DNA of 64,000 nt from Aliihoeflea aestuarii (GTDB lineage Bacteria; Pseudomonadota; Alphaproteobacteria; Rhizobiales; Rhizobiaceae), in NCBI RefSeq assembly GCF_024105665.1, contig NZ_JAAAMK010000003.1, positions 310,001-374,000 of the forward strand. Direction: 5' to 3'. Position 1 is the stretch's first letter, and each line of letters opens with the position of its first letter. The notes below the pieces were generated by a model, which was given only the letters and a program-made list of their open reading frames with translations, did not search any database and had not been told where the DNA came from. Shown in pieces: positions 56,884-64,000 of this stretch. The position numbers and the translations under genes were made by a program.

Positions 56884-59184
56884 GTGAAACCGGAAAAGAC
56901 ATCAGTTGACCGGCATATCCATGTTGGCTTCGTACGCTCGTTGTTCGAAGATCCTGGCGTGCTTTTGACCGCAGGTGTGTGCAACGGCCTGATCGCGATA
57001 CTGGTCTACGGGACGACACGGCACCCGATCTATCTGATTCTCGGCGCGGCGCTGCTCGTGTCGTCCACATACCGCTACCTGACGATCCGCCACGTCAAGA
57101 AGACCAATGCGATCACGGATATGGCGTCAGCCCGACGGGCTGAACGAGCCTATATTCTGGGAGGCATCGTCCAGAGCGCCTTCATGGGCGCCTTCGCCTT
57201 CACAGCCATCGTGCTCGTCCCCGACGTTTTCGGAGAACTGGCCGCCATCGCCGTGATCATGGCGGGCGCGGCGACGGTCGTCGGGCGCAATTACGGCTCG
57301 CGGCCGATGGTCGCCGTGTTCGGCTTCACCAGCGTGCTGCCGGTCGCTGCCGCGCTGATGCTGAAGGGCGAGTTCAACTATTTCCTGCTCGGCCTCTACA
57401 TCGTTCCGTTCATGATCATCCTGATGCGCATGGCCGCCAATGTGCGCGGCATCCTGATATCGGCGATCTCGGAAGAATTGAAGACCAAGGACATCGCCCA
57501 GCGCTTCGATCGCGCCCTGAACACCATGCCGCACGGGCTCGTCATGCTCGACGCCGAGGGCAAGACCGTGGTGGCGAACATGCGCGCGGCCGAAGCGCTG
57601 CGTTTCGAAGACGCCTCGCTGTTGCAGCGCCGCACCTTGAAGGCGCTGCTGCTGCGTGTCGCGGCAAGCGGCCTTTTGTCGACGAAGGATGCAAGCTTCG
57701 CGGATGCCGAATTGATGAAGGCGATCCGCGACGGGCGCGAGCGCCGCCTGCGGCTCAAACTGACCGATGGCCGTCATCTGGAATTCACCGCGCGTGCGGG
57801 GCGGGACGAACTGGGTGTCATCACCTTCGAGGACGTCACGCGTCGCGTCGAATCGGACGACAAGATCAGGCATATGGCCCGCTACGACAGCCTGACGGGA
57901 CTGCCGAACCGGGACTACTTCAACGAACTGATGATCGAGGCGAGCGAAACGGGCGACCGGCGGCGCACGATCGGCCTGGTTATCCTCGACCTCGACGATT
58001 TCAAGACCGTGAACGATACGCTCGGCCACCCTGTCGGCGACGGACTGATCGACGCGATCGCCCGGAAGCTGAAGCCGTTCGAGAGCAGGGACATCGTCAT
58101 CAGCCGCTTTGGCGGCGACGAATTCGCGCTCTATTTCGACAATGTCCCGGATGCCGACACCTTTACCGAGCGCATGAACGTCATTTTCGACACGCTCACA
58201 GGCGATGCGCATGTGGCAGGTCACGTTTTGCGCATACAGGCATCGGGCGGCGCGGTTCTGGTCCCGGTTCATGGCGCCGATGTCGACGGCATGGTGGTGA
58301 AGGCCGACCTTGCCCTTTACCGGGCAAAGGAACTCGGCAAGGCGTCCTGGTATCTCTTCGAGGAGGAGATGGACCAGGCATTCCGCCGCAAGCAGCGTCT
58401 CAAGATCGATCTGCGCGCCGCCATCGAAGACAAGGCCCTTCGCGTCGTCTATCAGCCGATCGTGTCGATGGAGACGATGCAAATCGCCGGTTGCGAGGCG
58501 CTTTGCCGGTGGGATCATCCGGAACTTGGAGCGATCTCGCCCGCAATCTTCATTCCTCTGGCCGAGGAGATGGGTATCGTGTCCCGGATCAGCGAATTGG
58601 TGCTCGACACGGCATGCCGGCAATGCGTGCTTTGGCCCGAGCATATCGGCGTCTCCGTCAATCTGTCGGCAAAGGATTTCCGGTCGGGCGACATCGTCGC
58701 GACGATCGAAAGGGCGCTTGGCGACAGCGGGCTTTGCGCGCGGCGTCTCGAACTGGAGGTGACCGAAACCGCGCTTCTCGACGACAAGGCAATGACGCGG
58801 CGCTACATCGAGGACATGAAGCGGATGGGCGTCCGGATCGCGCTCGACGATTTCGGAACCGGCTATTCGTCGCTCAGCTACCTGCACAATCTGCCGCTCG
58901 ACAAGATCAAGATCGACCGCTCCTTCCTGATGGACGTGACGCAGAACCGGCGCGCGCTCGACCTGTTGCGCGGAATCGTCGACATGTCGCGCCCGCTCGG
59001 CCTCGCGGTCACGATCGAGGGCGTGGAGACCTTCGAGCAGTTGAAGACTCTGGCCGAACACGTCCGCCCGGACCTTTTGCAAGGCTTCCTGTTCGGCGCG
59101 CCGCTCACGGCGTCGGGCATCGACGCGCTGGCACATACGACCTGGCCGTTCGCGAAGGATCTGAAGGCTTCGAGGCGGTCTTAA
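56884..59184 (+). CDS. Membrane-bound GGDEF-EAL cyclic-di-GMP enzyme
   Basis: 766 residues from a GTG at 56884. Five to six N-terminal membrane helices (about 25-185), a PAS-like segment (ALNTMPHGLVMLDAEGKTVV onward, about 212-325), a GGDEF domain with intact GGDEF at 410-414 in SRFGGDEFALYFD, and an EAL domain with EAL at 538-540, plus NLSAKDF, ELEVTETALL, DDFGTGYSSL and EGVETFEQLK. Both active-site sets look complete, so it may make and degrade c-di-GMP. An inhibitory-site RxxD is not obvious. Monocistronic; the CRISPR locus begins just downstream. Confidence 0.94.
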   Translation: MKPEKTSVDRHIHVGFVRSLFEDPGVLLTAGVCNGLIAILVYGTTRHPIYLILGAALLVSSTYRYLTIRHVKKTNAITDMASARRAERAYILGGIVQSAFMGAFAFTAIVLVPDVFGELAAIAVIMAGAATVVGRNYGSRPMVAVFGFTSVLPVAAALMLKGEFNYFLLGLYIVPFMIILMRMAANVRGILISAISEELKTKDIAQRFDRALNTMPHGLVMLDAEGKTVVANMRAAEALRFEDASLLQRRTLKALLLRVAASGLLSTKDASFADAELMKAIRDGRERRLRLKLTDGRHLEFTARAGRDELGVITFEDVTRRVESDDKIRHMARYDSLTGLPNRDYFNELMIEASETGDRRRTIGLVILDLDDFKTVNDTLGHPVGDGLIDAIARKLKPFESRDIVISRFGGDEFALYFDNVPDADTFTERMNVIFDTLTGDAHVAGHVLRIQASGGAVLVPVHGADVDGMVVKADLALYRAKELGKASWYLFEEEMDQAFRRKQRLKIDLRAAIEDKALRVVYQPIVSMETMQIAGCEALCRWDHPELGAISPAIFIPLAEEMGIVSRISELVLDTACRQCVLWPEHIGVSVNLSAKDFRSGDIVATIERALGDSGLCARRLELEVTETALLDDKAMTRRYIEDMKRMGVRIALDDFGTGYSSLSYLHNLPLDKIKIDRSFLMDVTQNRRALDLLRGIVDMSRPLGLAVTIEGVETFEQLKTLAEHVRPDLLQGFLFGAPLTASGIDALAHTTWPFAKDLKASRRS

Positions 59185-59207
59185 CCGTGCGGATTGCAGT
59201 ATCAAAT

Positions 59208-59232
59208 AAAAAGCCCCCGCCGTGGCGAGGGC
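59208..59232 (-). terminator. Intrinsic terminator of the candidate tracrRNA
   Basis: Minus-strand stem GCCCTCGC / GCGGGGGC (59232-59225 and 59220-59213, one G-U pair) with loop CACG, followed by TTTTT at 59212-59208. Confidence 0.85.
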
Positions 59233-59294
59233 CTTATCTGGTGCTGTCGAAGCTTGTTAACGGCCAGACCGCGTTTTCTGAACTGCTAAGCAGT
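59208..59294 (-). ncRNA. Candidate tracrRNA of the type II-C CRISPR locus
   Basis: A small RNA can be read on the minus strand, divergent from cas9. Promoter: -35 TTGCAT (59328-59323), 16-base spacer, -10 TATAGT (59306-59301), giving a start near 59294. The predicted 5' part (59294 to about 59261) has the form ACTGCTTAGCAGTTCAGAAA, then CGCGGTCTGGCC, which would be the anti-repeat. The body continues GTTAACAAGCTTCGACAGC and ends in a hairpin with GCCCTCGC / GCGGGGGC arms and a TTTTT run. Length about 87 nt, normal for tracrRNA. No array is in the window to confirm pairing. Confidence 0.72.
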
Positions 59295-59300
59295 GACCGC

Positions 59301-59328
59301 ACTATAGCGTATGCGCGACGAAATGCAA
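59301..59328 (-). promoter_or_regulatory. Promoter of the candidate tracrRNA
   Basis: TTGCAT and TATAGT, 16 bases apart, on the minus strand; each hexamer differs from the sigma-70 consensus at two positions. Start expected at about 59294, just inside the ACTGCTTAGCAG segment. Confidence 0.6.
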
Positions 59329-59337
59329 GTAATGTTT

Positions 59338-59356
59338 GTTAGTCTTTCAGACTAAC
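59338..59356. repeat. Palindrome between tracrRNA promoter and cas9
   Basis: Perfect eight-base inverted repeat GTTAGTCT / AGACTAAC with a 3-base loop, lying ten bases upstream of the tracrRNA -35 and about 95 bases upstream of cas9. It could be a protein-binding site acting on either promoter; no regulator is known. Confidence 0.6.
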
Positions 59357-59427
59357 GAGGCGGTGGTCTTCACGTTGCCCATGAACTTTCATGTCAAACT
59401 TTACTTTGAAGTCGTGATCGATAAAAA

Positions 59428-59447
59428 TCCCCGCCTGGGCAGGGGGA
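59428..59447 (+). promoter_or_regulatory. Hairpin covering the cas9 ribosome binding site
   Basis: TCCCC (59428-59432) pairs with GGGGA (59443-59447), extended by GC/GC (59433-59434 with 59439-59440) around loop CTGG, leaving a two-base bulge. The right arm includes the AGGGGGA ribosome site of cas9, whose ATG is at 59452. If it forms in the RNA it would limit cas9 translation. Confidence 0.5.
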
Positions 59448-59451
59448 CGGC

Positions 59452-62400
59452 ATGCACAATACGCTCTTTTCATTCGATATGGGCACCAACTCGATTGGCT
59501 GGTGCATTTTTGCGCTGAACGCAAAGAGCGAGCCCTACCGGATCGTCGATGCCGGCGTGCGCATTTTTTCTGATGGCCGTGAGCCAAAATCAGGAAATTC
59601 GCTTGCCGAAGGGCGACGCATCGCCCGGGGCATGTCACGTCGGAGGGAACGCTACAAGCGACGACGCAAGGCGGTGCTGCGCACCTTGAGCGAATATGGC
59701 TTGATGCCGGTCGATACCGCCGCGCGTCACGCTCTGGTTTCGGAGACGCGCGACCGCGGAAGAACAATCGACCCGATTGCACAGGCGGATGTCTACAATC
59801 TTCGCTCGCGGGCGCTGGATGCGGAATTGCCGCCGTTTCACGTCGGACGTGCACTCTTCCATCTCAATCAGCGGCGAGGGTTCAAATCCAATCGCAAGAC
59901 CGACAAGCGCTCGAACGAAAAGGGTGCGATCGAGCTGGGAGCGGAAAGACTCCATCTTGCCATTAAAGAGGCCCGCGCCAGAACGCTCGGCGAATTTCTT
60001 GCCGGGCGACGTGGCTACGATCCGGTCCAGTTGGGGCAGGTGCGCGTGCGGGCGGGCTCGGTGGACGGGGAAGACACGGTGCCGGCGAGCGCCAAACAAG
60101 GGTATGATTTCTACCCCCAGCGCAAGATGCTTGAAGACGAGTTCAACGCGATCTGGCATGCGCAGGCAAGGTTTCAGCCGCATATCTACACTGAAGAGCG
60201 CCGTGCGCACCTGTTCCGCGTCACGTTCTTTCAGCGGGAACTCAAGCCGCAGAAGCCGGGCAAGTGCAGTTTCAACTCCCTTGAGAACCGCCTGCCAAGA
60301 GCGCATCCGCTGTTCCAGACTTTTCGACTTTACAAGGAAGTCAACGAGCTTGAGTTGGTATTGCCCGACCTCTCGCAGCGCAAGCTGTCGCCGGACGAAC
60401 GTGACAACCTCATTCGCAAGCTGCGTTCGACACGCAAGGTTACATACGGGGCGTTGCGACAGGTCCTGAAGCTCGGCTCCGACATTCGCTTCAACAAGGA
60501 AACGGAAAGCCGCAAGGATATGGCCGGAGACGAGGTCTCGGCCGCTCTGTCCGCAAAGGACGCCTTTGCGAACGCCTGGTCCTCATTGTCGCTCGACGCG
60601 CAATGGGAGGTGGTCAGCCGGCTGCGGGAAGAGCAGGATTCGGCCAAGCTGCATCGATGGCTGGTCGAGACCCACGCCCTGTCAGAAGGTGCGGCAGAAG
60701 TCGTTGCGTCGATCGATCTGCCGGAAGGCTACGGGCGGCTCGGTCCAAGTGCGCTTTCTTCGCTCCTCGATCATCTGGTCGACGGTACCGACACGGACGA
60801 AAACGGTCGACAGGTCGTCATAAGCGAGGCCAAGGCTGCCGAACGAGCCGGGTACGATCACGCACTCGCACGGCAAGGCGAGGGGCTTGATCGTCTGCCG
60901 AAATATCAGGAGGTGCTGGAGCGCCGCATTCCACCCGGCAGCGGAGAGTCCGGTGATCCCTATGACGTGCGGATGGGCCGCATCACCAATCCGACCGTGC
61001 ATATCGGGCTCAATCAGCTTCGCCGCCTCGTCAACCGATTGATCGCGCGCCATGGAAAGCCGAACCGGATCGCACTTGAACTGGCACGCGAACTTAACCA
61101 GAGCGACGAGCAGAAGAAAAAGATCAACACCCTCATCGCGCGCAACACGCGCGACGCGGAGCGCCGCTCTCAAAAGCTGCGTGAGGAAATTCGCGTCGCT
61201 GACAACGGCTATAACCGGATGCTTCTGCGGCTGTGGGAGGATCTGAACAAGGAAAACCCGCTCGACAGGCGATGCGTTTACAGCGGAACGGTCATCACCG
61301 TCGAAATGCTGTTCTCCGGAGCGGTCGATATAGACCATATCCTGCCATGGTCCCGCAGCCTCGACGACAGCCAGGGCAACCGAATCCTGTGTACGCGCGA
61401 AGCGAACCGCCAAAAAGGCAACTGCATTCCGTCCGAGGTTCCGCAGTGGATGGATCGCTATGACGACATATTGGAGCGCGCCGCGCGGCTGCCTGAAAAC
61501 AAACGCTGGCGGTTCGCTCGCGACGCGATGGAGCAGTTCGAGAAAAACCGAGATTTCCTCGACCGGCAACTGACCGACACGCAATATCTTGCGCGCCTGG
61601 CGCACGACTATCTGGGTGCCCTCTACGGTGATGAGGAGCCGGACGGCGACGGCGTGCTCAAGCGCCGCAACCACGTCATCGTCGTCACTGGGCAAATGAC
61701 CGAGATGCTGCGTCGCAAATGGGGCCTCAACAATCTTCTTCACGACCACAATTACGGTCAGACGGCAAAAGGCAAGAACAGAAAAGATCATCGTCACCAT
61801 GCGATCGATGCGGCCGTCATCGGTGTGTCGACCCGAAGCCTTTTGCAGAAGATCGCCACCGCTGCCGCACGCAATGAGGAAAACGGCGCCGAAGATGCGC
61901 TTCGCCACATAGATCCGCCATGGCCGTCTTTCCGCGAGGAGTTGAAGGCAGTCGCCGGTCGGATCATCGTAAGCCACAAGCCCGATCGTGGCACTCTGCC
62001 CGCCAATGGCTCGACCGGTCCGACGGTGAGCCGGCTGCACAACGATACCGCTTACGGGCTGACTGGCCAGACGGACGAAAATGGAAACATGGTCGTCGTG
62101 CGCCGCAAGCCGTTCCTGTCCCTGACGGACAAGGATATCCCCTCGATCCGGGATGGCGATCTCAAGGCTGCCCTCGATCCATTCGTGGCAGGTTTGAGCG
62201 GCGCGGCTTTCACGCAGGCATTGATGAAATTTCAGAAGGCGGAAGGGCCGTTTCACCGAATTCGCCGCGTTCGTCTGGTCGACGGGCTGAACGTGATCGC
62301 GATTCGTGACAAGGAGGGCCGACCCTACAAAGGCTATATGGGCGGCTCCAACTATCGATACGACGTCTGGGAACTGTCGGATGGGCAATGGGACGCAGAA

Positions 62401-62778
62401 GTCGTTTCCATGTTCGATGCGCATCAGCCTGGCTGGAAGCCGGCGATGCGCGAAAAGCACCACAACGCCCGCAAAGTGCTCAGCCTTCGGCAAAACGACA
62501 TGGTCGCCTATCAGGAAGGGGACACCCGAAGCATCGCACGGGTCCGCAAGTTTGGTCAGAACAAGCAAATCTGGTTCGATGGACACCTAGAAAGCGGAAA
62601 CCTGAGCGAGCGCCACAAGGACGTGGACGACCCGTTTCGCGATTTCAGCAAAATGCCGAATGGCTTGAAGCAGATCGGTCTTCGCCAAATTCGCGTCGAT
62701 GAAACCGGCCGCGTGTTCGATCCCGGACCGCAGGATGCGCAATCGCGTGCGGCAAAAAGATCAAGGCCGCACCCTTAA
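59452..62778 (+). CDS. cas9: CRISPR-associated endonuclease Cas9, type II-C
   Basis: 1108 residues from the ATG at 59452. RNA-guided double-strand DNA nuclease. RuvC-I FSFDMGTNSIGW with Asp9; arginine-rich bridge helix at about 54-80 (RRIARGMSRRRERYKRRRKA); recognition lobe with LFHLNQRRGFKSNRK; RuvC-II IALELAREL with Glu543; HNH motif VDIDHILPWSRS with His629 and the QGNRILCTREANRQKGN end; RuvC-III DHRHHAIDAAVIG with His783 and Asp786. All nuclease residues are present, so it should be active. About 850-1108 is the PAM-interacting region. The absence of csn2 or cas4 beside cas1-cas2 indicates subtype II-C. Base composition is a little lower in GC than neighbouring housekeeping genes. Confidence 0.97.
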   Translation: MHNTLFSFDMGTNSIGWCIFALNAKSEPYRIVDAGVRIFSDGREPKSGNSLAEGRRIARGMSRRRERYKRRRKAVLRTLSEYGLMPVDTAARHALVSETRDRGRTIDPIAQADVYNLRSRALDAELPPFHVGRALFHLNQRRGFKSNRKTDKRSNEKGAIELGAERLHLAIKEARARTLGEFLAGRRGYDPVQLGQVRVRAGSVDGEDTVPASAKQGYDFYPQRKMLEDEFNAIWHAQARFQPHIYTEERRAHLFRVTFFQRELKPQKPGKCSFNSLENRLPRAHPLFQTFRLYKEVNELELVLPDLSQRKLSPDERDNLIRKLRSTRKVTYGALRQVLKLGSDIRFNKETESRKDMAGDEVSAALSAKDAFANAWSSLSLDAQWEVVSRLREEQDSAKLHRWLVETHALSEGAAEVVASIDLPEGYGRLGPSALSSLLDHLVDGTDTDENGRQVVISEAKAAERAGYDHALARQGEGLDRLPKYQEVLERRIPPGSGESGDPYDVRMGRITNPTVHIGLNQLRRLVNRLIARHGKPNRIALELARELNQSDEQKKKINTLIARNTRDAERRSQKLREEIRVADNGYNRMLLRLWEDLNKENPLDRRCVYSGTVITVEMLFSGAVDIDHILPWSRSLDDSQGNRILCTREANRQKGNCIPSEVPQWMDRYDDILERAARLPENKRWRFARDAMEQFEKNRDFLDRQLTDTQYLARLAHDYLGALYGDEEPDGDGVLKRRNHVIVVTGQMTEMLRRKWGLNNLLHDHNYGQTAKGKNRKDHRHHAIDAAVIGVSTRSLLQKIATAAARNEENGAEDALRHIDPPWPSFREELKAVAGRIIVSHKPDRGTLPANGSTGPTVSRLHNDTAYGLTGQTDENGNMVVVRRKPFLSLTDKDIPSIRDGDLKAALDPFVAGLSGAAFTQALMKFQKAEGPFHRIRRVRLVDGLNVIAIRDKEGRPYKGYMGGSNYRYDVWELSDGQWDAEVVSMFDAHQPGWKPAMREKHHNARKVLSLRQNDMVAYQEGDTRSIARVRKFGQNKQIWFDGHLESGNLSERHKDVDDPFRDFSKMPNGLKQIGLRQIRVDETGRVFDPGPQDAQSRAAKRSRPHP

Positions 62779-62835
62779 GTATAATTCAACGATTTTGTTT
62801 CAACCATTGCGGGTATTCATGGGTCTTGCAATGTC

Positions 62836-63753
62836 ATGGAACGCGTTGTCGATATCGAAACCGACGGTCTTTTCCTTGCTGTCCATCGCGGGTTTCTGAC
62901 CGTCAGTTCGGCCGGTGAGGAAAAGGGCCGCATCCCGCTCGACGATATCGGTGCGCTGATCGTTCACGCGCATGGCACGAGCTGGTCGAACTCGGTGATG
63001 GTGCGGCTTTCCGAGCGCGCCGTCCCCATCGTCATATGCGGCAGCAACCACGCACCGGTTGCCTGCATCTGGCCGCTGCACGGCCATCATGCGCAAGGCG
63101 CGCGCATGCGGGCGCAGATCGGCGTTTCAAAGCCGCTGACAAAACAGATCTGGCGGCAGATCGTGGCTGCGAAAATCCGCATGCAGGGCCATGTTCTTTC
63201 GGGAAATGGGGGCCAAGCCGGCGCTTTCGACCTTCTGGCGCGCAAGGTCCGCTCGGGCGATCCCGACAATATCGAGGCGCAAGCCGCGCGACGCTACTGG
63301 AAGGCGCTTTTCGGGCCGGGCTTTTCCCGCGACAGGTCGGCCGAAGGTGCGAACGCATTGTTGAACTATGGCTATACCGTTCTGCGCGCCGTGGTTTCGC
63401 GTGCTATCTGCGCGGCCGGCCTGCATCCCACGATCGGCGTTTTCCATGCGAACCGAACCAATGCCTTCGCGCTTTCAGACGATTTGATGGAACCCTACCG
63501 GCCTCTGGTCGACCAACTCGTCCTCGATCTCGTCGCAGCCGGCGAACAAGGCGTGAGCGCCGAAGCCAAACATCGTCTTGCGGCCATGACGGCGGTCGAT
63601 CTCGACAATGGCGACGGGACAATCTCGCCTCTTGGCGTACAGGTGCAGCGTTTCGTGCATTCCGTGGCCGAGAGCTTCGTCACGGGGCGCCGAAATCTCG
63701 TTCTGCCGCTTCGTCCAGCCGTCCGCTCCGGCCTCCTTCCGTCCGATCCATGA
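62836..63753 (+). CDS. cas1: CRISPR-associated endonuclease Cas1 (type II)
   Basis: 305 residues. Integrase that, with Cas2, inserts new spacers at the leader end. The predicted metal site is intact: Glu147 in PDNIEAQAARRYW, His204 in IGVFHANRTN and Glu219 in DDLMEPYRP. The N-terminal beta domain starts MERVVDIETDGLFLAVHRGF. It lies 57 bases after cas9; TATAAT at 62780-62785 hints at a promoter of its own but no good -35 is seen, and there is no strong ribosome site. Its stop overlaps the cas2 start (ATGA). Confidence 0.96.
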   Translation: MERVVDIETDGLFLAVHRGFLTVSSAGEEKGRIPLDDIGALIVHAHGTSWSNSVMVRLSERAVPIVICGSNHAPVACIWPLHGHHAQGARMRAQIGVSKPLTKQIWRQIVAAKIRMQGHVLSGNGGQAGAFDLLARKVRSGDPDNIEAQAARRYWKALFGPGFSRDRSAEGANALLNYGYTVLRAVVSRAICAAGLHPTIGVFHANRTNAFALSDDLMEPYRPLVDQLVLDLVAAGEQGVSAEAKHRLAAMTAVDLDNGDGTISPLGVQVQRFVHSVAESFVTGRRNLVLPLRPAVRSGLLPSDP

Positions 63754-64000
63754 CGCGGCGCGAGGACAGGGCCAATACGGGCTTTTCCCATTTGAGCGGA
63801 TATCAGCTGATGTGGATATTGGTGACGTTCGATCTTCCGGTGGAGACGAAAAAGCAGCGCGCGGCCGCAACGAAGTTCAGGCATTACCTGCTTGATCTCG
63901 GCTTCGAGATGAGCCAACTTTCGAATTATCTGCGCTTTTGCAACGGCAAGGAACAGTTCGAGGCACACCTTCGCAAGATCGAGCGCAACCTGCCTGCCTG
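63750..64000 (+). CDS. cas2: CRISPR-associated Cas2 (3' end cut by window edge)
   Basis: 83 codons to the window end from the ATG at 63750, which overlaps the cas1 stop. The recognisable core starts at LSGYQLMWILVTFDLPVETK, then KFRHYLLDLGFEMSQLSNYL and RFCNGKEQF, the type II Cas2 pattern with the metal-site aspartate in FDLP. Because other family members begin at SGYxLMW, a TTG at the L of LSGY is an alternative start; the ATG would add about 15 residues. The array and its leader should follow outside the window. Confidence 0.94.
   Translation, partial: MTRREDRANTGFSHLSGYQLMWILVTFDLPVETKKQRAAATKFRHYLLDLGFEMSQLSNYLRFCNGKEQFEAHLRKIERNLPA

Follow-up and report, generated by a model that had tools for sequence, protein, structure and literature searches.

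A probable complete type II-C CRISPR-Cas9 locus in Aliihoeflea aestuarii, with a conserved hairpin over an IHF-like site at the cas2 side of its array

The window analysed here is a 64,000-nt stretch of the Aliihoeflea aestuarii contig NZ_JAAAMK010000003.1 (positions 310,001 to 374,000), and its right end holds, in order, a tracrRNA gene on the - strand, cas9, cas1 and cas2, followed by a CRISPR array in the continuation of the contig. The window ends within cas2, and the rest of the locus was read from the contig of the same genome in L002 coordinates, to which 55999 is added to give the continued window numbering. The genes cas9 (59452..62778, 1108 aa), cas1 (62836..63753, 305 aa) and cas2 (63810-64115, 101 aa, within the window to 64000 and ending at L002:8116) all lie on the + strand, in keeping with the single orientation that an initial annotation had given for cas9, cas1 and the start of cas2, and cas2 is complete past the window end. 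After cas2 there are 75 nt (L002:8114-8188) and then an array of 32 repeats and 31 spacers (64188-66267; L002:8189-10268), which came into view when the contig was extended rightwards and is neither missing nor decayed. The 36-nt repeats are identical in all 32 copies, the 31 spacers all differ, and a stretch of 31 nt (L002:10269-10299) was delimited past the last repeat.

Cas9 matches NCBIfam TIGR01865 at 565 bits (cut-off 100) as well as PF18541 and PF13395, with the RuvC and HNH nuclease parts present, and Cas1 matches the type II Cas1 model TIGR03639 at 247 bits (cut-off 120). Twenty-five loci were chosen for a Cas9 alignment, two of which (L078 and L163) gave no row; in all 23 rows D9, E543, H629, H782, H783 and D786 are identical. 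These are the positions that we take to be catalytic from the RuvC and HNH motifs, and their constancy agrees with the earlier statement that the catalytic residues all appear to be present.

The candidate tracrRNA gene, placed opposite to the cas genes in the initial annotation and likewise here, occupies 59208..59294 on the - strand, with a start probably near 59294. Its anti-repeat (59292-59257, - strand) has 7 mismatches to the repeat, and no other match of this kind appears in the window even with 14 mismatches allowed. The repeat:tracrRNA duplex has a predicted energy of -58.9 kcal/mol, whereas 400 random window stretches reach -40.4 at the lowest; a tracrRNA with an anti-repeat, as expected of type II, is thus indicated by both pairing and energy. 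The terminator scan places a terminator-like hairpin and T-run at 59233-59208 (- strand), with a TTTTT end at 59208, and a second terminator-like hairpin (59429..59444, L002:3445-3430, - strand) between cas9 and a promoter-like TTGCAT-16-TATAGT (59301..59328, - strand). The latter was recognised by reading the sequence against the consensus, and a scan for promoters listed none in front of the tracrRNA. The crRNAs would presumably be read on the - strand, in which sense the repeat begins GTTG and ends TGCTAAGCT. Read in this way it is similar to the promoter-in-repeat form of other II-C arrays, and its 3' end resembles an extended -10. Once paired with the tracrRNA, the crRNAs would direct Cas9 to cleave phage DNA.

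The make-up of the locus is that of subtype II-C, with cas9, cas1 and cas2 only and with csn2 and cas4 absent. NCBIfam includes a II-B Cas9 model, to which this Cas9 gave no match. In a tree of 23 rows, comprising one II-A row, zero II-B rows and no row labelled II-C, the window's Cas9 falls within a 9-row clade (support 100/100), grouping with Cas9s whose loci are made up alike and away from the csn2-bearing II-A row, so that the tree proposed earlier as a check on subtype did not place it with II-A. The nearest row is the family member G073 (L065), which is 62% identical (the fork has 93/87 support and is not starred), and the locus adds one natural 1108-residue Cas9 with complete guide RNAs. 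Both G073 and Pelagibacterium sediminicola L041 (Cas9 58% identical) have the same gene order and the same 75-nt cas2-repeat gap with a hairpin, and their 36-nt repeats have 3 and 2 mismatches, respectively; an anti-repeat upstream of cas9 was seen in L041, and the scan showed none in G073. According to PMC5156944, a Rhizobiales bacterium from the ant gut likewise carries cas9, cas1, cas2 and array in this order, but its 9-repeat array lies next to a second, I-C system, whereas searches of the window's genome matched neither Csd1 nor Cse1. The EH CRISPR-Cas9 system (PMC10281378) is also II-C, with cas9-cas1-cas2, a tracrRNA upstream of cas9 and 36-bp repeats; it differs in being metagenomic, in its two-repeat array and in having a tested PAM, NGG.

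The initial annotation had held that I-C and I-E systems are commoner than type II in this order, which the family samples do not bear out: type II-like Cas1 (counted at E <= 1e-40 to the window's Cas1) occurs in 26/394 genomes, Csd1 (I-C) in 20/356 and Cse1 (I-E) in 11/356 (7 of the 11 matching genomes over the cut-off), a comparison that is rough because the kinds of query differ. Its description of the surroundings as ordinary chromosome stands, with ordinary genes on both flanks of the locus within a 564-kb contig and the genes past the array syntenic in relatives. Gene order common to relatives and the reading of translations likewise agree that no integrase or transposase is seen beside the locus. 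The suggested comparison of the left junction with Cas9-less relatives was carried out and did not resolve into a simple insertion: the four other genomes of the genus all lack Cas9, no simple empty site was found among them, and in each the two flanking genes are on different contigs.

Spacer 25 (L002:9807-9836) matches, at 28/30 bases including all 11 repeat-adjacent ones, the head maturation protease gene of the family genome G167, which is identified by PF10123 (Mu-like prophage I protein, 175 bits) and as a PHROG head protease; the same gene in G194 matches at 25/30 bases, with the same 11 matching. By base composition, 0.007 matches with 2 mismatches are expected over 31 spacers x 300 genomes, a figure that rises for the full search to 2.6 at 4 mismatches and 32.8 at 5 (spacer 25 taken singly has expectations of 0.006 at 2 mismatches and 21.6 at 5); given the counts at 4-5 mismatches, only the match at 2 mismatches can stand alone. 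One of the 31 spacers likely has a target in a Mu-like prophage, which gives the locus one likely phage target. PMC5156944 reports that a spacer in the I-C array of the ant-gut bacterium also matches a Mu phage. On the expected PAM side of the two prophage sites stand TGGTTGGATC and CGGCTGGATC, which serve as a lead, since two related sites do not suffice to define a PAM.

The search of relatives gave matches at E <= 0.01 in 69/301 genomes, one of them the source genome itself. When 51 of the listed places (11 + 40 of the relatives' matches) were re-scored with whole spacers, 13 had a spacer at <=6 mismatches and 38 none; reversed spacers gave 0/51 loci, which is not a fair null because the loci were picked by the real spacers. 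Dismissing all of these matches as chance was considered and abandoned, the best one having proved to lie inside the Mu-like prophage gene. Spacer 14 has 4-5 mismatches to a gene resembling serine acetyltransferase in L193, L194 and L196, and at that distance the match is left as chance or host-like. No convincing target was found among phages (14 matching records, all E >= 2) or in 40 of 67 plasmid records (only arrays of plasmids bearing Cas9 relatives, or E >= 0.6), and the exact 20-nt starts of 8/31 spacers had 0 matches in viral contigs. Self-targeting was set aside, since the array searched against its own genome returned itself, the anti-repeat and one orphan repeat-like stretch, with the rest at E >= 0.09.

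Taken together, these features suggest that the locus is most probably a complete type II-C CRISPR-Cas locus, to which we assign a probability of about 0.92 from sequence evidence. That 30/31 spacers have no convincing target could point instead to a relic, in which the genes are intact and the array or its expression is dead. This we regard as very improbable, given that the 32 repeats are identical and the 31 spacers different, that all three genes are open and the tracrRNA complementary, and that one spacer matches a Mu-like prophage. The apparent intactness proposed at the outset is thus upheld by the open genes, the complementary tracrRNA and the presence of the array, and the locus appears to be an ordinary, complete and apparently working member of a well-known CRISPR-Cas9 kind. 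The unusual part of it is a folding element at the presumed spot of spacer acquisition, which is common to many related bacteria.

Cas1-Cas2 would insert new spacers at the cas2-side end of the array. Of 16 loci with >=2 repeats, 8 have a degenerate final repeat at the end far from cas2, and 0 have a degenerate repeat on the cas2 side; the window's locus, with its identical repeats, counts among the 8/16 without a degenerate end, L076 was left out of the degenerate loci because its mismatches are masked N, and in L070 and L083 the contig stops close to the last repeat seen. It should be noted that, in PMC12638026, tools are said to disagree over the direction of II-C arrays, and that II-C may contain subgroups differing in acquisition end.

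The gap between cas2 and the first repeat, measured from the stop codon, is 74-76 nt in 40/47 distinct gaps. Scored against the IHF consensus, an IHF-like site with <=2/9 mismatches stands exactly at -24 in 28/40 leaders of the clade, against 4 at the next best offset and at most 2/40 in the shuffled control. The window's own site (-24 to -12 relative to the repeat) is weaker than most, with 3/9 mismatches, and belongs with the other 12/40, whereas the proteobacterial plasmid loci of Azospirillum and Limnohabitans, scored afterwards, have 1 mismatch at exactly -24. The gap also has a conserved TTT (-59 to -57) and a conserved ATC (-4 to -2), and the source genome has IHF alpha and beta genes, both over the cut-off. 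In the 75-nt gap, IHF would bend the DNA for Cas1-Cas2, and the hairpin over this site would stop array transcripts heading to cas2. Work by Santiago-Frangos in 2021 reportedly described leaders that depend on IHF in I-E and I-F, as well as IHF sites in some II-C leaders. In those leaders, too, an IHF-like site reportedly precedes the repeat at the acquisition end, with conserved motifs farther out; in the present type the site also bears a covarying hairpin that shares its centre.

This hairpin (L002:8146-8182 in the window's locus) shares one centre with the IHF-like site, its arms covary in relatives, and its centre lies at -25 to -23.5 from the repeat in 34/41. With three registers allowed in data and null alike, Watson-Crick pairing averages 8.65/13 against 5.52 (maximum 6.33) with the 3' arms dealt anew, and a single ungapped register over all leaders pairs 210/520 cells against 160 when shuffled, the latter test understating the hairpin because its centre shifts by up to one base. 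Neither null preserves sequence relatedness. No account of a hairpin superposed on an IHF-like site was found in the literature searched, which covered titles and the starts of abstracts, mostly without subscription papers.

The hairpin may be an intrinsic or bidirectional terminator between convergent transcripts, with the IHF-like site there by shared position only, a reading to which we give even odds. Five or more T among the 9 nt past the stem are found on the - strand in 12/38 centred hairpins and on the + strand in 0/38, L140-L142 have a short stem with a T-run after it on the - strand, and G-U pairing is more frequent when the - strand is folded (53 vs 19 over 41 sequences; in a thinned set of n=29, 38/453 pairs vs 13/414 on the + strand). 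However, 26/38 centred hairpins, including the window's, have no T-run and are mostly long stems at a fixed place, and the single G-U pair of the window's hairpin is in the + strand fold, not the - strand fold. The centre shared with the IHF-like site, the constant spacing to the repeat in those 34/41 and the conserved TTT and ATC would instead suit an element of spacer acquisition, as extruded or bent DNA or as RNA made there, acting with IHF and Cas1-Cas2. We consider this rather doubtful, as the G-U asymmetry favours RNA of the array strand and 3/41 leaders (L116, L117 and L148) have no hairpin on either strand, though the IHF-like sites of L116 and L117 are perfect.

A tentative proposal is that the newest array end of proteobacterial II-C systems is a composite switch, in which a single DNA site serves as an IHF-bent docking site for Cas1-Cas2 and, on transcription, gives a hairpin of conserved structure at the 3' terminus of the array transcript. 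If the composite switch is true, array transcription and spacer insertion would compete over, or control, one and the same 40-base stretch. A covarying hairpin over an IHF-like site at a fixed repeat distance in many genera offers a handle on how the cas2-side 3' end comes to be chosen for new spacers in II-C systems, and on how convergent array and cas transcription are kept apart. RNA helices beside II-C arrays are likewise described in PMC12080349, where hairpins and terminators restrain extraneous crRNAs. By that account they lie upstream of the array, at its oldest end, whereas the covarying hairpin described here is on the cas2 side. The window's cas2-distal array end may carry an RNA helix of that kind, and some of the helices of PMC12080349 could be the same element as the hairpin found here, if array directions were misassigned in some systems.

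At the right end of the window (G000:C19:310001-374000, from a genome of 4.11 Mb in 25 contigs), and running on past its edge, lies an ordinary, complete type II-C locus, of which only the composite leader might surprise a specialist. The cas9 (59452-62778), cas1 (62836-63753) and cas2 genes (from 63810, ending past the window edge at 64115 on the same contig) are present as the initial annotation had described them, and it had recognised the locus correctly. It had also proposed looking for an array to the right; the contig continuation L002 holds one at 64188-66267 in continued window numbering, with 32 repeats of 36 nt, none differing, and 31 distinct spacers, 30 of them 30 nt long and one 28 nt. 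The last repeat stops 31 nt short of the stop codon of a minus-strand gene, labelled epimerase-like from a reading of its translation, and ARAGORN and Rfam gave no matches on L002. Cas9 matches the TIGR01865 model, and Cas1 matches that for type II Cas1. By sequence, the solved structures closest to Cas9 are chains of 1082-1095 residues (about 200-203 bits), whereas chains of SpCas9 length score only about 34 bits. In a 23-row Cas9 tree, rooted on a csn2-bearing Nicoliella II-A Cas9 with a very long branch, lacking a II-B row and unsure in its placement of long rows, the window protein pairs with that of G073, a member of the same family (support 93/87). The pair falls within a nine-row clade (100/100) of sequences from the family, the order and Pelagibacterium.

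A single anti-repeat was detected in the window, at 59292-59257 on the minus strand, with seven mismatches. Its repeat:tracrRNA duplex is predicted at -58.9 kcal/mol, against a best of -40.4 among 400 random window stretches. The tracrRNA is followed by a terminator-like hairpin with a T-run and preceded by a promoter-like TTGCAT-16-TATAGT, read by eye and not called by the promoter scan. A second terminator-like hairpin lies on the minus strand at 59429-59444, between cas9 and this promoter, and could protect the tracrRNA from read-through. Pairing with this tracrRNA would require the array to be transcribed from the minus strand, toward cas2 and opposing the cas genes. Read this way, the repeat starts with GTTG and ends with TGCTAAGCT, a form similar to that of promoter-bearing repeats elsewhere in subtype II-C. 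PMC8616872 reviews promoters of this kind.

Among 16 loci with at least two repeats, the last repeat distal to cas2 is degenerate in eight and the cas2-side repeat, at the presumed acquisition end, in none; one locus with masked bases (L076) was left out of this count, and L069 and L077 have an additional altered repeat within the array. PMC12080349 describes II-C acquisition via the last repeat; PMC12638026 cites acquisition at the 3' end but also suspects II-C subgroups with differing ends. The 31 nt that follow the cas2-distal repeat can fold into a hairpin of eight pairs (-5.2 kcal/mol). Guide-sequestering helices against extraneous crRNAs are described in PMC12080349 at the matching place, the oldest array end; that this one weak fold acts likewise is only a suggestion.

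The leader has a nearly constant length. Across the initially compared loci with cas9, the gap between the cas2 stop codon and the first repeat is repeatedly 75 nt, unlike the variable spacings between cas9 and cas1 (15-186 nt) and between cas1 and cas2 (45-202 nt), measured between alignment ends. For the main leader set, two Cas1 searches provided loci from all 27 family matches and 30 of 42 order matches (one shared; the 12 omitted are mostly the most distant), and with 18 earlier loci added, 74 were screened. Three lacked cas2, eight had no readable repeat after it (because of masking, a contig end or a missing array) and 63 yielded a gap, reduced to 47 by removing identical ones; 40 of these 47 are 74-76 nt long. 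When the leaders are aligned on the first repeat, many columns are near random and some blocks are conserved: TTT at -59 to -57, an A/T-rich block at -37 to -34, WTCAR at -23 to -19 accompanied by TT at -14/-13, and, closest to the repeat, ATC at -4 to -2. The third of these corresponds to the IHF consensus, WATCAR-N4-TTR. Scored at -24, it shows a mean of 2.1 mismatches in nine positions (median over offsets, 6.0), and 28 of 40 leaders have two or fewer, compared with 4/40 at the runner-up offset and a maximum of 2/40 in 500 rounds of base shuffling. The window's own site has three mismatches, and its genome encodes IHF alpha and beta above the NCBIfam cut-offs. Ten named regions were also fetched, with cas1 and cas2 annotated and followed in three; Azospirillum thermophilum and Limnohabitans, to which IHF scoring was confined, have one mismatch exactly at -24, and the gap in the fusobacterium Ilyobacter is 100 nt. 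IHF sites were reportedly found in some II-C leaders by Santiago-Frangos in 2021.

The same stretch also folds, with a hairpin centred at -25 to -23.5 in 34 of 41 sequences and a fold z below -2 in 36/41 on the plus strand and 38/41 on the minus strand. Its arms differ between lineages yet keep pairing: Watson-Crick pairs average 8.65 of 13, against 5.52 when the 3' arms are redealt (1000 rounds, maximum 6.33), and at least nine pairs form in 25/40 leaders against a shuffled maximum of 7. The IHF site alone could partly explain the inner AA/TT pairing but could not explain the outer G+C arms, and the two features are separable, since a perfect IHF-like site is present in L116 and in L117, although neither these two nor L148 shows a hairpin on either strand. 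G-U pairs are commoner in minus-strand than in plus-strand folds (53 vs 19; in a thinned set, 15 sequences vs 5, p 0.04), and a T-run follows the stem in 12/38 cases on the minus strand and 0/38 on the plus strand. Both signs point to an RNA of the array strand, so that the plainest function of the hairpin would be to terminate array transcripts or cap their ends. However, the T-run is absent in 26/38, including the window's locus, whose single G-U pair belongs to the plus-strand fold. L140-L142 have a short leader hairpin with a T-run after it on the array strand; the hairpin stem overlaps the IHF-like site, the terminator and site using the same bases.

One spacer has a likely target; no convincing one was found for the others. 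Spacer 25 (65806-65835) matches 28/30 bases in G167, a genome of the same family, within a gene for a 369-aa Mu-like prophage I protein (PF10123, 175 bits; cut-off 25.2) that is also a PHROG head maturation protease. The adjacent gene encodes a PHROG virion structural protein; others further on encode tail, connector and GTA-like tail proteins. The mismatches fall at crRNA positions 16 and 19, and all 11 repeat-adjacent bases match, which should be the seed position if the array is read on the minus strand. The homologous gene in G194 (PF10123, 195 bits) keeps the same 11 bases in a 25/30 match that on its own is at chance level. The target slightly raises confidence in a working locus. In the G167 prophage (L216), a Mu-like head protease thus occurs together with tail genes of GTA type (PF13547, PF23666).

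Type II-like Cas1 occurs in 26/394 genomes of the family sample and 39/397 of the order sample, the window's genome included in each, and Cas9 in one of the five genus genomes examined. In the family, Csd1 (I-C) is found in 20/356 genomes and Cse1 (I-E) in 11/356, seven above cut-off. Type II-C is thus a minority, as initially supposed, but the accompanying view that I-C and I-E are commoner is not supported in these samples. Two family members, G009 and G075, have such a locus and in addition an I-C Csd1 gene.

In four genus relatives, gene order is kept for the left oxidoreductase and GGDEF-EAL genes and for the epimerase-like gene and its right-hand neighbours, with the two flanks on separate contigs. 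In three relative loci (L085, L086, L088) the GGDEF-EAL gene is followed by a 319-aa gene and a short gene, whose counterparts in the window's genome lie about 63 kb off (C19:304502-306328). Gene order departs from that of the genus relatives at window 59184-59452 and, beyond the array, at L002:10299. The comparison of the left junction proposed initially therefore places the locus on a rearrangement breakpoint, and a clean empty site cannot be shown. Cas9 relatives occur on plasmids in other Alphaproteobacteria and Limnohabitans, making plasmid carriage a plausible route of arrival. A relative of the window Cas9 is contained in 37 Pseudosulfitobacter plasmid records; in the one fetched (L155), IS21 and IS66 genes flank cas9 on both sides, and the incomplete plasmid gene table lists no cas1 or cas2 for this stretch. 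A lone repeat-like stretch, 8.7 kb left of the window (C19:301255-301290; L064:2256-2291, plus strand), differs from the 36-nt repeat at 11 ungapped positions, ranks second to the anti-repeat outside the array in 104 kb, and may be what is left of an earlier array or tracrRNA. A tRNA-Gly gene (L064:1823-1897) lies about 360 bases away, and the stretch adjoins fragments that, on reading the sequence, resemble a broken IS5-type transposase.
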